Positions 28,564-34,976 of a stretch of DNA of 64,000 bases are shown piece by piece. Positions within the stretch are counted from its first letter, which is position 1, and the number at the start of each line of letters is the position of its first letter. A program made the translations under genes and the position numbers. The stretch lies in NCBI GenBank assembly GCA_937959265.1, contig CALGMA010000044.1, positions 1 through 64,000 of the forward strand, given 5' to 3'. The notes under the pieces are model-generated. The model had not been told where the DNA came from, did no database searches, and was given only the letters and a program-made list of their open reading frames with translations. Source of the DNA: an uncultured Anaerolineae bacterium (GTDB lineage: Bacteria > Chloroflexota > Anaerolineae > J036 > Brachytrichaceae).

Positions 28564-30398
28564 GCAAATTCGGGCGAGCGATTCAACCTATGAAGCGAAG
28601 CTTGGGGGTTCTCGTTGCCGTTGCTGCGATGATGCTGGGCGGCTGCACGATGTCCAGCCGCCCAACGTTGCCGGTGGAAGTGCTGCTGACGCCGGCGGCG
28701 ATGCCGACCGTCGCCGCCGACGGCGAAGCAGTACCAATCCAACCACCTGACGCCGCCGCCGGTGCGGCCATTTATGCGGAGAAATGCGCGGCCTGCCACG
28801 GCAACGCCGGCAAGGGCGATGGCCCCAGCGCCGCGCAGATCCGCGCGCAGGGCAAGGTCGTCGCCAGCCTCGTGGAGCCGGCGCGCTTCCGCGCAGCGCG
28901 CCCGCGCGACTGGCACAACGTGATCACCAACGGGCGCATCCAGAACCTGATGCCGCCCTTCCGAGGCTCGCTGAACGCGCAGCAGCGCTGGGACGTGCAG
29001 GCTTACCTTTGGGCGCTGGGCGCAACGCCGGAGAGCATCCAGGCCGGCGAGCAGCGCTATCAGGCCCAGTGCGCCGCATGCCACGGAGCCAACGGCGAGA
29101 CGCCGGTTGGCGACGCCCGGCGCTCACTCAACACACCGCGCTTCTTGGCCGAGCACTCGCTGCTGGACATCGCCAATCTGATGCTGCGCGGCGACGCGCA
29201 CGCCGGCATTGACCTAGATGAAGCGCAGCGCTTCCAAGTTGCCAACTTCGTGCGCGCACTGGGCTATCGCTACGCCGACCCGGCGGCGATCCGCCTCGCG
29301 GCCATCACCGGCGACGGAGTCATCAACCTGCGCGCGGTCAACGGCACGCCGAACGGCCGGCCCATCCGCGCGCTTCCGGTAACGCTGCGCGTGTATGACA
29401 CGGCCGGCGAAGTCTTCTCGCGCACGGCGGCGCTGGACGATGCCGGCTTTGTCTCGTTCGACAACCTGCCGACGCGCGCCGACTACTTCTATCAGGCCGA
29501 GCTGGACTACAGCGACGGACGGTTCTACGCTGCGCCGATGCAGTTCCCGATCACCGGCACGCAGTTGATCAGCGACATCCTGCCGGTGTTCGAGACGACC
29601 ACCGACCCCAGCGCGATCCAGATCAACGAGCTACACATCTTTGTGCAGAACATCACGGAGAACGCGGTAACGATCGTCGAGTACTACTTATTCGACAACA
29701 TCAGCGACCGCGCTTACATCGGCGAGGCAGGTCCTAACAACAGGCGGCGCACGCTCAAGATCAGCGCGCCGAAGGACGCGCAGAACCTGCGCTTCGATGG
29801 CCTGGGCCTGGGCAGCCGGTTCTTCCAGGATGGCGAGGTGATCTACGACAGCGACGTTGTGGTGCCCGGCCTGCGCTCGGCGCAGATCGCGATGCTCTAT
29901 GAGCTGCCTTATCGCGATCGCCGCGCCTTCGAGCGGCGCGTGTTCTACCCCGTCCAGCGCGCCGATGTGATCGTGCCGGAGGTGAGCGGGCCGGGCGCGC
30001 CGTTCACGGTGACGGGCGGCCTGACCGACCAGGGGGTGCAGCGATTGGCCAGCGGCGACCTGCGCGTGTTCCTCAGCCCAAAGGCGCTGGCAGCCGGCGA
30101 GACATTCTCGTTCGAGCTGCGCGGCCGGCCGTTGGCAGCGCCGGCGCCCGGCTCCGACCCGCGCGCCATCGGCTTTGGCCTGATCGCCTCTGGCTTGGCG
30201 ATTGGCCTCGCCTATTTCGTCGTGAGCCGCGCGCGCGCTCAACGAGCGGCCGAGGCTGCCGCCCCCCAGCGCCGCAAGATCCTCTTGCGCGAAATCGCCG
30301 ACCTGGACGACAAGTTCGCCCTGGACCAAATCGCGGAAGCGGACTATCGCGCGCAACGCGACCGGCTGAAGCGCGAGCTGGTCGCGCTATGGGAATGA
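28560..30398 (+). CDS. Dihaem c-type cytochrome lipoprotein with C-terminal membrane anchor
   Basis: This 612-residue protein begins with a lipoprotein signal (LGVLVAVAAMMLGGC), then two cytochrome c domains, each with a CAACH haem site (about residues 76-80 and 170-174). A large beta-rich region follows, and a C-terminal membrane helix (GLIASGLAIGLAYFVV). The cytosolic tail reads REIADLDDKFALDQIAEADYRAQRDRL, resembling the conserved helical block in the CcmI-like protein encoded just before. The ATG overlaps the previous stop by 4 bp; an alternative start at 28590 would omit 10 residues. It is likely an electron carrier or sensor at the outer face of the membrane, matured by the upstream proteins. 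Confidence 0.85.
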   Translation: MSKFGRAIQPMKRSLGVLVAVAAMMLGGCTMSSRPTLPVEVLLTPAAMPTVAADGEAVPIQPPDAAAGAAIYAEKCAACHGNAGKGDGPSAAQIRAQGKVVASLVEPARFRAARPRDWHNVITNGRIQNLMPPFRGSLNAQQRWDVQAYLWALGATPESIQAGEQRYQAQCAACHGANGETPVGDARRSLNTPRFLAEHSLLDIANLMLRGDAHAGIDLDEAQRFQVANFVRALGYRYADPAAIRLAAITGDGVINLRAVNGTPNGRPIRALPVTLRVYDTAGEVFSRTAALDDAGFVSFDNLPTRADYFYQAELDYSDGRFYAAPMQFPITGTQLISDILPVFETTTDPSAIQINELHIFVQNITENAVTIVEYYLFDNISDRAYIGEAGPNNRRRTLKISAPKDAQNLRFDGLGLGSRFFQDGEVIYDSDVVVPGLRSAQIAMLYELPYRDRRAFERRVFYPVQRADVIVPEVSGPGAPFTVTGGLTDQGVQRLASGDLRVFLSPKALAAGETFSFELRGRPLAAPAPGSDPRAIGFGLIASGLAIGLAYFVVSRARAQRAAEAAAPQRRKILLREIADLDDKFALDQIAEADYRAQRDRLKRELVALWE

Positions 30399-32039
30399 AG
30401 GGACGCTTTGCGCCTGTTGCTCGGCCAGGTACTTCTCCTTGTTTGCGCTGCGCGCCACTTTGCCGCTGCTGGTTTTGATCAACCATCGCGCGTCCACCAT
30501 CACCACTTGCCGCACGGCCACGTCGGAATTGCGCGTCACGTGCTGGCGGACGGCTTCGGCCACGCGCGCGCGCTCCTCGGCATCTTCGCTTTCCGCTTCG
30601 GCGACGATCACCACATCTTCGGTGCCGGCCTCGGGGTTGAACACGCCAAATGCCGCCACGCGCCCCGGACGCACGCCGGGCACCTCGCCGGCCAACTGTT
30701 CCAGGTCCTGCGGATACACATTCTTGCCGCCGACGATGATCAAGTCTTTCTTGCGGCCGGTGACGTAAACCTCGCCATCCAGCACGTAACCCAGGTCGCC
30801 GGTGAGATAGAAGCCCTCGAAGAACGCCTGAGCGGTAGCATCCGGGCGGTGGTAATACTCGCTCAACATGCAGTCGCTCTGCAAGGCAATCTCGCCGATG
30901 GCGCCTTCAGGCAAGTCGCGCCGATCTTCGCTCAAAATGCGGATGCGCACGTTGGGCAGCGGACGACCCGAGGAAACCTGGCCGGCGTTGCCGATGCCGC
31001 CGCCCGCGTTGCGCGCGATGGGCGCGCCGATGACGCTCTGCGTGACGGCAAACGCGTTTTCGGCCATGGCGTAGCACGTGGCCAGCGCCTCTTCCCGCAG
31101 GCCATAGGGCTTGAACTTTTGCAAGAAGACCTGATGGCTGGCGTGATACACCGGCTCCGAGCAGTTGATCACCGCGCGCAGGCTGGACAGGTCAATGCCG
31201 TCTAAATCGCGCTCGCGGATGCGCGTGGCGCAGAAGTTGTAGGCGAAGTTCGGCAACCAGGTGAGCGTGCCGCGATACTTTGCCACGGCCTGCATCAGTT
31301 TGACCGGCGCGCGCACCCAGTCGAGCGGCGACATCAGCACCAGCGGCACGCCCCGCAGCACCGGCAGCACGAACGACGCGATCAAGCCCATGTCGTGATA
31401 CAGCGGCAGCCAGCTCACAATCACGTCGCGTTCATTCAGTCCGATGGCCGGGGCGTAGGCGTTGAGCTGATTGAACACGGCGCGATGCGACAGGGCGACG
31501 CCCTTTTGCAAGCCCGTGCTCCCCGACGAGTGCTGTAGCAACACCAGGTCACTGTCGCTGCGCTTCATTCCACCCAGCGAGGCAAAATCCGGAATGGCCG
31601 CAGTGACTTCGCCGACCACGATAGGCGCGACGCCGGCCGCGCCCGACGCCTCGATAGCCGATTCGACCTCGCGGGCGAAATCGGGATAGGTGACGATCGC
31701 GCGCGGCCGCGTAACGCGGATGAGGGAGGCAAGGTCCTTGCGATAGCGCTCCGGCAGCAGCTTCTCGGTCAGCGGTGGCAGGATCGCAGGGACTGCGCCG
31801 TGCAACACTGCGCCCCAGAACGCATACACCAATGGCTCGCCGTGCGGCAGAATGATCACGACCACATCGGACTGCCCGACGCCACGCTGAGCCAACACCT
31901 GGGCGAAGCCGGCCGCGCCGCACATCAGGTCGCGATAGGTGAGCGTCACATCATCGCGGCGGGCGAATTGCAAGTGAATGGCCGGCCGCTCCGGCGCGTC
32001 CGCATAAGCCCGCGCAAGGACTTGCGAGAAGTTCGTCAT
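30387..32039 (-). CDS. Fatty-acyl-AMP-ligase-like adenylating enzyme (Dlt-like cassette, DltA role)
   Basis: This 550-residue ANL-superfamily enzyme activates a carboxylic acid as acyl-AMP and should load it onto the adjacent carrier protein. Motifs visible are LLQHSSGSTGLQKGV (P-loop A3), SWLPLYHDMGL (FAAL-type A4), VTGRKKDLIIVGGKNVYPQDLE (A8) and the catalytic A10 lysine in TSSGKVARS. The SWLPLYHDMGL block is typical of fatty-acyl-AMP ligases rather than D-Ala ligases, so the acyl group is more probably a fatty acid than D-Ala (inference). It overlaps the carrier-protein gene by 4 bp and the convergent cytochrome gene by 12 bp. Confidence 0.87.
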   Translation of the reverse strand: MTNFSQVLARAYADAPERPAIHLQFARRDDVTLTYRDLMCGAAGFAQVLAQRGVGQSDVVVIILPHGEPLVYAFWGAVLHGAVPAILPPLTEKLLPERYRKDLASLIRVTRPRAIVTYPDFAREVESAIEASGAAGVAPIVVGEVTAAIPDFASLGGMKRSDSDLVLLQHSSGSTGLQKGVALSHRAVFNQLNAYAPAIGLNERDVIVSWLPLYHDMGLIASFVLPVLRGVPLVLMSPLDWVRAPVKLMQAVAKYRGTLTWLPNFAYNFCATRIRERDLDGIDLSSLRAVINCSEPVYHASHQVFLQKFKPYGLREEALATCYAMAENAFAVTQSVIGAPIARNAGGGIGNAGQVSSGRPLPNVRIRILSEDRRDLPEGAIGEIALQSDCMLSEYYHRPDATAQAFFEGFYLTGDLGYVLDGEVYVTGRKKDLIIVGGKNVYPQDLEQLAGEVPGVRPGRVAAFGVFNPEAGTEDVVIVAEAESEDAEERARVAEAVRQHVTRNSDVAVRQVVMVDARWLIKTSSGKVARSANKEKYLAEQQAQSVPSFP

Positions 32040-32284
32040 TGCCGTGACCGGATTAGGGCGACCAGTTGCTCGAGCGTGTCGAATGTGTCGGCGTTGAGTT
32101 CGCCGTCGTCAATCCGCACGCCGAATTTGTCCTCGACGAACAGGCCCAGGTCAACCAGGTGGAACGAGTCAATCAGGCCGCTGGAGATCAACGGCTCATC
32201 CGGCTTGATCGCGCGTTTCGGGTTCTTTAGGATGGCGCCGGCGATGTATTCCGCGATAGGCGCTGCAATCGAATCATCCATCAT
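32036..32284 (-). CDS. Acyl carrier protein (Dlt-like cassette, DltC role)
   Basis: This 82-residue protein has the carrier-protein fold with the phosphopantetheine Ser in GLIDSFHLVDL (D-S-x-x). It would be loaded by the adenylating enzyme downstream and hand the acyl group to the MBOAT protein. An in-frame TTG at 32308 would add eight residues, but ATG 32284 gives the usual length and follows the SGNH gene stop by 7 bp. It overlaps the adenylating enzyme gene by 4 bp. Confidence 0.85.
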   Translation of the reverse strand: MMDDSIAAPIAEYIAGAILKNPKRAIKPDEPLISSGLIDSFHLVDLGLFVEDKFGVRIDDGELNADTFDTLEQLVALIRSRQ

Positions 32285-32291
32285 GTCACCA

Positions 32292-33413
32292 TTATCTCCG
32301 GCCAACAATCACTGTGGCCAACGCCTCGGCCAGCATTCGCGATCCCGCCGGCGTGAGGTGCACCGCGCTGTTGGTGAATTCTTCTTGGGGCGCCAAGTCC
32401 CAGGCGTCGAAGTAGTCCACGCGGCGCAATTGCAGATGGTCGCGCAATAGCGCGCGGTACTGGTCATAGGCCCAACGCGGGTAGAAGAAGTTATAGCGCG
32501 CGTCGCTATTGCGCCCTGTGCTGACCAAGATCGGCTCGTTGACGACGAGCACACGCGCGCCGGCGTCGGCGGCCATGCGAATGCCGGCGTCCAGCACATC
32601 AAACGCCAGCGCATCCTTCGGCAGCGTCGGCGGCAGCAGGCCCTTGAACGACCGGTCGGCGTCCAGGTCGCGCTGCGCCGGCTCGTAAGTCTCCGGGATG
32701 TGCTGGTCAATGCGCGTCGCCGCCCACAGCGCGCCATAGGTCTGTAGGCGTAGCCAATCGGCGAGCGCGCGGCGTTGGCCGACAAGCGTCCGCTGAAGGA
32801 ATGTGGGGGCAAGGAGGGCCGGATCGTCTGGGCGGCTGCGCAGACGATGCTCGGCGATCAGCACGCGCACCGCCTCGGCATTGTGCTGCACGATCGGATG
32901 CGCGAGTTGCTTATCGGCCGGGAAGGATTCGAGCGTGATCAGCCAGACCACAAGGTCGGGCTGGTATGCCACGGCGCGGCCGAGCACGAGCAGATCTTTG
33001 GTCAGCGACATGATCGGATAGCCGAGGTTGTAGGCGCGCACGATGCGCCCGTCGGCGGTCTTCAGGCGCATGGCGTTGAGCTGACCGGCCAAGGTGTCTT
33101 CGTTGCGCAACAGCCAGCCCCAGGTGGCCGAATCGCCGATGAGCAACACGCGGTATTCATCCATGCGCTTGGGCGCGCCCGCCAACTCGTGAGAGGCGAA
33201 CATGGCGTTGAGGTCGAACAGGCTTAGGTTGTAAGCCCGCGCGGGATCGTCGCCGTAGGGCAGGCGCGCGCGCCCCGGCCACAGCGCGTTGTAGAGCGAG
33301 AGCCGCCCCAGGGCAGGCACGGGATCGGTCAGCGCAAAGACGAGGTTGAGCGCGCCGAACAGCGCCAGCGCCTTGACGACAATGCGAAAGGCGATGCGAG
33401 CGTCGAGCATCAT
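32292..33413 (-). CDS. SGNH-hydrolase-like acyltransferase (Dlt-like cassette, DltD role)
   Basis: This 373-residue protein has a single N-terminal membrane helix (about residues 6-28) and an extracytoplasmic SGNH domain. The nucleophile block is VLLIGDSATWGW (G-D-S), and the C-terminal catalytic His lies in SAVHLTPAGSRML; the Asp usually three residues before it is Ser here. DltD-type proteins transfer acyl groups to cell-surface polymers. The ATG at 33413 overlaps the MBOAT stop (ATGA). A longer reading of the frame to 33806 overlaps MBOAT heavily and is rejected. Confidence 0.83.
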   Translation of the reverse strand: MMLDARIAFRIVVKALALFGALNLVFALTDPVPALGRLSLYNALWPGRARLPYGDDPARAYNLSLFDLNAMFASHELAGAPKRMDEYRVLLIGDSATWGWLLRNEDTLAGQLNAMRLKTADGRIVRAYNLGYPIMSLTKDLLVLGRAVAYQPDLVVWLITLESFPADKQLAHPIVQHNAEAVRVLIAEHRLRSRPDDPALLAPTFLQRTLVGQRRALADWLRLQTYGALWAATRIDQHIPETYEPAQRDLDADRSFKGLLPPTLPKDALAFDVLDAGIRMAADAGARVLVVNEPILVSTGRNSDARYNFFYPRWAYDQYRALLRDHLQLRRVDYFDAWDLAPQEEFTNSAVHLTPAGSRMLAEALATVIVGRR

Positions 33414-34834
33414 AGGCCAAAGAGCTTGCGGAACACGCCGAGCGACAGCGCAGCGTCCGGCAACGCGAACCACACCCAACCCAGCGCCACGAAGTGAAAG
33501 GTGAGCAGCGCGCCCGCCGCGTTTGTTGCGCGCTGCAGGTGCGGTCGCTCCTGCAAGGAGGTCAATCGCGCCTTGGCGAAGTCGGCCCAGCGATTGTGTA
33601 GGAACAGCCCAGCGCCGTGCCACAGCCCCCACAGGGCGAAGTTCAACGTGACGCCGTGCCACACGCCGATGAGCAGCATGGTCGTCACCTGGCCGACGAA
33701 TATGATCGCCGGCGTCGCCCACGCGCGCGTCCGCAGCGCGCGGGTGAGCGGGTTGAAGTAGTAGGCGCGAAACCACTGCGCCAGCGACATGTGCCAACTG
33801 TTCCAAAACTGGGTCAGGTTGGGCTTGAGATAGGGACGGTTGAAGTTCTCCGGCAGCCGGACGCCGAAGATGCGCGCGACGCCAATGGCGATGTCGGTAT
33901 AGCCGCCGAAGTCAAAGTAGATGCGCCAGGCGTAGGCGTAGACGAGCAACCACATCCAGCCGGCGCCTTGCGCCTGCGTCGCATTGATCTCGTTGAGCGC
34001 CAGGAGTGCCAGCCAGTCGGCCAGGACGAACTTCTTGAACGCGCCGATGGCGATGCGCCGCGCGCCCTCGGTTGCGTCGGGCCAGTTGAAGGCGAACGGC
34101 GCGCGCAGGTCCTTGAGGAAGCGATCCGGCCGGTCAATCGGCCCGGCGATCAGCGCCGGCGCGAAGACGGCGTAGGTGACGAACTCGCGCAGCGACATAG
34201 CCGGCAGCCGGCCCGACGCGCGCTCGCGCAGCGCCGCGATCAACCGGAAGCAAATGTAAGAGAACCCCAGCCAACGCACGTCGAGCGCCGACGCCTGCGC
34301 CGCCGATTGACCTTGTGTGACGCGCAGGAGCGCAGCGAACGCCTGGGTGAGCGGCTCGTATTTCAGCGCGAACAACAGCGCCACCAGCGCGATGACCAGC
34401 GCCGTCGTCCACGCCGACCGTGGGCCGATGATGCGGCCGGCGGCGACGGCCAACAGCGCGGTGATCGCCAGCGCCGCCAGCACACTCAGCACCGCCGGCG
34501 GCGAGGTGCGCGTGATCAACGCGCTGAGCGGCTCGACGAAGCGCAAAGCAGCGATCCCCAGCGCAATGCCGCCGATGAGCGCCGCATCGGTCAACGTCGC
34601 CCGATCCGGCTGCCGGTGCGTCGCAAGGGCCGACGACGTCGCCGCCCAAACGATGACCGTCAGCGCGAGTGAAGCCGTCGGCAGCCAGAAATCCATCTGA
34701 CGGATGGGCATGGCCGGTTGCAATGCGTAGAGCGCCAGGACGCTGGCCGCGAACAAGGCGAGATTGCGCGCCGGGGCCTGAGCGAGCGCCAAGCGACCCG
34801 CAGCCGCCGGCGGGGAGGTCTCGGTCGCAAGCAT
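33410..34834 (-). CDS. MBOAT-family membrane acyltransferase (Dlt-like cassette, DltB role)
   Basis: This 474-residue polytopic protein belongs to the membrane-bound O-acyltransferase family. The diagnostic RPYLKPNLTQFWNSWHMSLAQWF block and the catalytic-His block LLIGVWHGVTLNFALWGLWHG are present. About 12 membrane helices are predicted. In Dlt systems the MBOAT protein moves the acyl group from the carrier protein across the membrane to the DltX microprotein. It starts directly after the stop of a 42-residue DltX-like ORF and ends overlapping the SGNH gene. Confidence 0.9.
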   Translation of the reverse strand: MLATETSPPAAAGRLALAQAPARNLALFAASVLALYALQPAMPIRQMDFWLPTASLALTVIVWAATSSALATHRQPDRATLTDAALIGGIALGIAALRFVEPLSALITRTSPPAVLSVLAALAITALLAVAAGRIIGPRSAWTTALVIALVALLFALKYEPLTQAFAALLRVTQGQSAAQASALDVRWLGFSYICFRLIAALRERASGRLPAMSLREFVTYAVFAPALIAGPIDRPDRFLKDLRAPFAFNWPDATEGARRIAIGAFKKFVLADWLALLALNEINATQAQGAGWMWLLVYAYAWRIYFDFGGYTDIAIGVARIFGVRLPENFNRPYLKPNLTQFWNSWHMSLAQWFRAYYFNPLTRALRTRAWATPAIIFVGQVTTMLLIGVWHGVTLNFALWGLWHGAGLFLHNRWADFAKARLTSLQERPHLQRATNAAGALLTFHFVALGWVWFALPDAALSLGVFRKLFGL

Positions 34835-34963
34835 TCAGAAGCCCTGATAGATCCACTGAGGCGCGCTATCGGCGGAGGCGACGACCAGCGCGAGGATGAG
34901 CAAGCACAACAACAGCGCGATCAGGTTCTCGCGCGAGAAGACGCGGCGGCAAAACCGTTGCAT
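34835..34963 (-). CDS. DltX-like membrane microprotein
   Basis: This 42-residue ORF (ATG at 34963-34961) abuts the MBOAT start with no gap. It has a basic N-terminus (M-Q-R-F-C-R-R), a single hydrophobic helix (about residues 14-29) and ends in WIYQGF. DltX of Gram-positive dlt operons has the same architecture: one membrane helix and a conserved C-terminal aromatic tail of the type F-x-Y-x-x-F, whose Tyr is the proposed acyl carrier in trans-membrane transfer. Here the first aromatic is Trp. With MBOAT, SGNH, carrier protein and adenylating enzyme following, this completes a five-gene Dlt-like set. A TAGAAT -10 box lies 7 nt upstream. Confidence 0.75.
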   Translation of the reverse strand: MQRFCRRVFSRENLIALLLCLLILALVVASADSAPQWIYQGF

Positions 34964-34970
34964 CCGACAA

Positions 34971-34976
34971 ATTCTA
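34971..34976 (-). promoter_or_regulatory. -10 box (leaderless type) of the Dlt-like cassette
   Basis: TAGAAT on the minus strand ends 7 nt before the ATG of the DltX-like gene. No TTGACA-like -35 is seen at the right distance. Confidence 0.5.

Follow-up and report, generated by a model that had tools for sequence, protein, structure and literature searches.

A Dlt-like five-gene cassette of Anaerolineae that probably fatty-acylates an outer surface molecule

Acyl shuttles and the layout of the cassette

Shuttling of acyl groups on the tyrosine of a short C-terminal tail has been shown experimentally in two systems, Dlt and PatAB, that combine an MBOAT protein with an SGNH protein (PMC12148441). 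In PatA/PatB and other fused-tail MBOAT-SGNH pairs, the tail, a motif of the Y-x-x-F type, is part of the MBOAT itself and the donor is acyl-CoA. In Dlt, by which Gram-positive bacteria attach D-alanine to their walls, the tail is carried by a stand-alone microprotein, DltX, that works with a carrier protein and a ligase dedicated to the system. Outside Dlt, MBOAT/SGNH systems are described as having neither a dedicated carrier protein nor a DltX-type microprotein (PMC12148441). Here we describe a cassette that resembles the fused-tail pairs in its Y-x-x-F type motif, MBOAT and SGNH protein, and differs from them in having a separate microprotein and a carrier protein and ligase of its own. 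No description of it was found in the limited set of literature searched.

The cassette lies in a stretch of 64,000 nucleotides (the window) from a genome of 4.0 Mb in 52 contigs. Its named neighbour is Candidatus Roseilinea sp. NK_OTU-006, and the MBOAT identity of 89% to it marks the window as Roseilinea-type Chloroflexota. An ORF check located five tightly coupled minus-strand genes at 30387-34963 in the order X-B-D-C-A, flanked upstream by an MFS transporter gene and downstream by a convergent gene. The preliminary description had reported five overlapping leftward genes in this order; all five ORFs were recovered and their part families matched, and the overlap applies to two junctions, B/D (ATGA, with the ATG of D at 33413) and C/A (also ATGA). 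The other two pairs only abut: the ATG of B directly follows the TGA stop of X, and D and C are spaced by about 4 bp. Read-through of the X stop codon, giving an X-B fusion, was considered and rejected, as there is no sign of selection for it: the two genes share a frame in 33 of 70 loci, and all three stop codons are used.

The likeness to Dlt extends to the five kinds of parts, the stand-alone microprotein with an aromatic tyrosine tail, the dedicated carrier protein and ligase, the MBOAT with a DltB fold and the SGNH protein with a single helix. There are differences too. The models of DltX, DltB, DltD and DltC do not take in X, B, D and C, the tail begins with W, D is without the block-V Asp, the ligase is of the fatty-acyl-AMP-ligase (FAAL) type with no amino-acid clamp, and the cassette was found here only in Anaerolineae. 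Of the curated Dlt models tested, not one scores up to its cut-off with a cassette part; judged by those models, the parts are analogous to dlt parts and not orthologous.

The microprotein and its MBOAT partner

X (34835-34963, minus strand) encodes 42 residues with one transmembrane helix and the C-terminal tail WIYQGF, in which Tyr39 is the putative acyl-accepting residue. This ending is close to DltX tails, for example FLYFGF (PMC11035591), and has the aromatic-x-Tyr-x-x-Phe form seen in MBOAT-SGNH shuttle systems, here on a partner microprotein. X has no meaningful family match in Pfam or NCBIfam. The DltX model PF12459 did not match X or three of its relatives at E-values up to 10, and it found nothing in genome G000, while it did match in the Bacillus subtilis and Lactococcus lactis controls.

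Conservation of X was followed in two ways. In the named scan for cassette loci, the best 80 loci were counted and all 80 belong to Chloroflexota. X adjoins B in 70 of these, ending in WIYQGF in 68 of the 70; the other ten comprise two loci where X is cut by masked sequence, three contig ends and five in which X lies elsewhere in the genome, where a genome search recovered it at E 1e-19 or better. A culturable relative, Leptolinea tardivitalis YMTK-2, has X-B at L189. In a sample of 400 Chloroflexota genomes spread evenly over the phylum, X was present in 34 and B in exactly the same 34, none having only one of the two, and all 34 are of the class Anaerolineae. Thus, relatives that keep the MBOAT also keep X with its aromatic tail (34/34 genomes; 77/77 informative loci), and the earlier claim of a 42-residue membrane microprotein ending in WIYQGF proved sound: the ORF is real and its tail near-invariant.

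Of 93 distinct X genes, 91 encode the tail WIYQGF, one FIYQGF and one WVYQGF. Compared in pairs, the tails are 99% identical and the remainder of the protein 24-56% (24% at the N-terminus and 54% in the helix), and the tail is encoded by 42 different 18-mers. It is important to note that this set was chosen by a pattern fixing tail residues 1, 3 and 6, so that the unbiased support comes from the free positions I, Q and G and from the profile searches. The presence of X in every genome with B, together with the invariant tail, indicates that X is more than a chance ORF. We consider it an unannotated microprotein family whose invariant tail is probably function-bearing. X could alternatively serve just to hold B and D together structurally, or as a translational-coupling leader, with no acyl intermediate involved, and its abutting B in many loci would suit either role; but a near-invariant end of six residues on an otherwise variable protein, kept even when far from B, makes this explanation very improbable.

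B (33410-34834, minus strand) is an MBOAT O-acyltransferase (PF03062, E 1.7e-18) with the fold of DltB, which is also its nearest family (TIGR04091, 214 bits; DltB in the PDB, E 6e-42). It does not reach the equivalog cut-off of TIGR04091 at 375 bits, and neither do its relatives at 196-239 bits, whereas a true DltB encoded in the related genome G019 scores 421. His348 and His393 are invariant among relatives and align with the WNRWHMSLS and GFWHG segments of DltB. For structure prediction, X and B were modelled in combination, using a joint alignment of natural in-frame X-stop-B stretches purely as a modelling device. In structure comparison, the combined model matched DltB with Z 28.8 over 384 residues, followed by PORCN with Z 23.8. 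The tail of X has a pLDDT below 50 and is unplaced in this model, so the prediction gives no support for docking of the tail at the histidines of B.

Related genomes also encode fused-tail MBOATs ending in FIYFQF or FVYLQF. These are separate proteins and fall outside the B clade, which itself has a support of only 0.64. In one genome (G053), two such proteins, both ending in FIYFQF, stand in tandem at L059:7519-11400, a few kb upstream of X-B-D-C-A. The window's own genome has a second MBOAT on contig C2 (L066:7977-9230), with Asn at the position of the first active-site His of B (RNWNITTTRW).

The carrier protein, the ligase and their linkage to the shuttle

C (32036-32287, minus strand) is an acyl carrier protein with a PF00550 match above cut-off and the conserved phosphopantetheine site GLIDSF. 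Against the DltC equivalog TIGR01688 it scores 23.9 bits, where the cut-off is 52.35. A (30387-32039, minus strand) is an adenylating enzyme of the FAAL type with all core motifs present (PF00501, E 5e-52), and its best solved relatives are FAALs. It shares with LpFAAL (3kxw), EcFAAL (3pbk) and FadD32 the A4 motif PLYHDMG, an adjacent acyl carrier protein partner and, in most relatives, the length of the FAAL-specific insertion; it differs in standing outside any polyketide or lipopeptide assembly line. In alignment, PLYHDMG takes the place of PFSFDVS in the true DltA of G019. A lacks the amino-group-binding Asp of the A4 FDxS motif; at the position of this Asp in the FDVS of DltA it has His215, which is conserved in 29 A proteins. 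The insertion measures 39-43 residues in 26 of the 29 A proteins, compared with 42 in LpFAAL, which agrees with the earlier assignment of A as a FAAL-type rather than a D-Ala-type ligase. In the window and two Roseilinea-type relatives it is shortened to 27 residues, and this shortening in the window's own lineage would count against the reading of the cassette as a fatty-acyl relay. According to published work on FAALs, their rejection of CoA is not due mainly to this insertion (PMC8460268). On its motifs, A looks built for fatty acids.

The cassette might be thought a diverged version of true D-alanylation, or of another amino-acid system, since its parts are of the same kinds, no solved protein is closer to B than DltB and the DltC matches of C, though sub-threshold, exist. 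Besides the missed cut-offs and the His in A, a relative stands against this: G019, of the same family, has both the cassette and a genuine dlt set held separately, in which DltA scores 500 bits, DltB as given above, DltD 171 bits, and DltX exceeds its cut-off. We therefore give amino-acid transfer very little credence. The dlt operon of G019 lies on contig C140 (L239, 5741-9858), where the DltA, DltB, DltD and DltX models score at or near cut-off; lateral transfer or contamination may account for it.

Co-occurrence across genomes bears on whether A and C serve the X-B pair. Of the 34 genomes with X and B, 32 also have A, and of 20 tested genomes without the pair, one has A at a comparable score. 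The exceptions are G139 and G255, with X and B and no match to A, and G300, with A and without X and B; G001 is without X, B, C and A together. C and A are retained even where the cassette genes are scattered over several contigs. For example, G013 keeps X, B-D, C and A on four contigs. In three genomes (G081, G082 and G083), X lies directly behind A and not before B, an arrangement that links ligase and shuttle. A variant order, X-D-C-D-D-A, occurs in G080 (L234, 6104-11863); D is present there as three paralogues, and B is encoded at another place in that genome. In three genomes, the A-X pair stands beside genes that by eye appear to be for hydrogenase maturation (L233, L235 and L238).

These data also bear on the possibility that X-B-D is a transferase driven by acetyl- or acyl-CoA and that A-C, part of an unrelated lipid pathway, is its neighbour by chance. 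Many relatives have no C and A inside the sampled flank of B, and the two genomes with X and B and no match to A would agree with such an arrangement. However, it sits poorly with the presence of A in nearly all X/B genomes and with the A-X pairs, and B is DltB-like, the donor route of DltB itself using a carrier protein. We regard a CoA-driven transferase as unlikely.

The SGNH protein, the proposed relay and the wall

D (32292-33413, minus strand) is an SGNH-type protein with one N-terminal helix. Residue numbers for D start at the codon at 33392, and those of the full protein are higher by seven. Its GDSL/SGNH match (PF13472) is below cut-off, there is no DltD match in Pfam or NCBIfam, PF04914 is without a match in G000, and phmmer against the PDB returned nothing. 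The AlphaFold model (mean pLDDT 94) has an SGNH fold, and its structural matches include four DltD entries (Z 14.3-14.6; 260-279 residues aligned) that are among those of longest coverage, with several esterases equal by Z. In the D alignment, the GDS serine is kept in 66/66 and the block-V His in 65/65, and the block-V Asp usual in SGNH enzymes is replaced by Ser or Thr. By its sequence, D is an SGNH protein outside the DltD family, and the missing Asp would count against the relay. With the catalytic Ser and His in D, and the active-site histidines and fold in B, assignment of the cassette to the MBOAT-SGNH acyl-shuttle mechanism class is supported.

We propose to read the cassette, with a probability of roughly 70%, as an acyl relay of the Dlt type across the membrane, moving a fatty or fatty-like acid in place of D-alanine. 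In short, A would adenylate the acid and load it onto the phosphopantetheine of C, as its family and linkage suggest. At the cytoplasmic face, B would accept the acyl group that C carries and send it along the tunnel of the MBOAT to the tail of X outside the membrane, where Tyr39 would receive it. The fold shared with DltB and the invariance of both the histidines and the tail suggest this handover. From X the group would go to the catalytic serine of D. In the step we hold least firmly, D would join it by an ester bond to a hydroxyl on an envelope molecule outside the cytoplasm, for which a glycan associated with the wall is the likeliest candidate. The relay is drawn by analogy with Dlt and PatAB and builds on the parts, their conservation, co-occurrence and folds as observed here; its chemistry we infer, from the acid that is carried and the acyl-tyrosine to the final acceptor. 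Attachment of a fatty or other acyl group to a surface polymer had been suggested before, and of this suggestion the mechanism class and the FAAL-type ligase find support, the acid and the acceptor being conjectural. Overall, the cassette probably fatty-acylates an outer surface molecule.

Several lipoproteins accompany the cassette. In 35 of the 80 loci, a small one of about 130 residues and no known family is encoded immediately upstream of X (e.g., L139:8409-8798 and L142:8414-8800). SGNH-like lipoproteins, mostly with GDC instead of GDS, occur in or near it in 40 of the 80; many stand between D and C with KxGDC, Cys replacing the block-I Ser (e.g., L146:11641-12573, L203:12675-13640 and L156:11545-12490). 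They are multi-copy in cassette genomes, with Cys in 45 and Ser in 12 of those scored. This family also occurs without the cassette, as in G001, and was rejected as an obligatory part. Proteins combining LysM, SH3 and SGNH domains adjoin the cassette at L045:5178-6857 and L134:9339-10799.

Taken with the lipoproteins, these LysM, SH3 and SGNH neighbours hint at the wall as the acceptor site. The same relay could instead end on a small molecule of the envelope, such as a glycolipid or a lipoprotein, with no wall glycan involved. The frequency of both kinds of lipoproteins around the cassette and the absence of a recognisable glycan-binding part in D speak for such an acceptor, but the LysM and SH3 domains of some SGNH neighbours point to the wall and characterised MBOAT/SGNH pairs act on polymers (PMC12148441), which leaves it a doubtful alternative to a wall-associated glycan. 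The envelope itself has been described in part. Chloroflexota stain Gram-negative. They are described as monoderms without LPS genes, and a genome announcement reports lipoteichoic-acid genes in one of them (PMC8793728), so the preliminary remark that such bacteria are not known for lipoteichoic acid should be taken cautiously.

If the relay is correct, the MBOAT/SGNH shuttle machinery would be separated from D-alanine and classical lipoteichoic acid, and the tyrosine shuttle would be able to carry a much larger hydrophobic group. This would depart from the published view, in which D-alanylation is the sole MBOAT/SGNH pathway to have a microprotein like DltX or a carrier protein of its own (PMC12148441), and it adds, with X, a family easily missed at its size. 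Tentatively, a large and mostly uncultured class may decorate its wall, possibly the peptidoglycan, with fatty acyl chains by way of a dedicated acyl carrier protein and a 42-residue tyrosine shuttle, giving a hydrophobic wall. The cassette would also open a testable route into the poorly known envelope of monoderm Chloroflexota.
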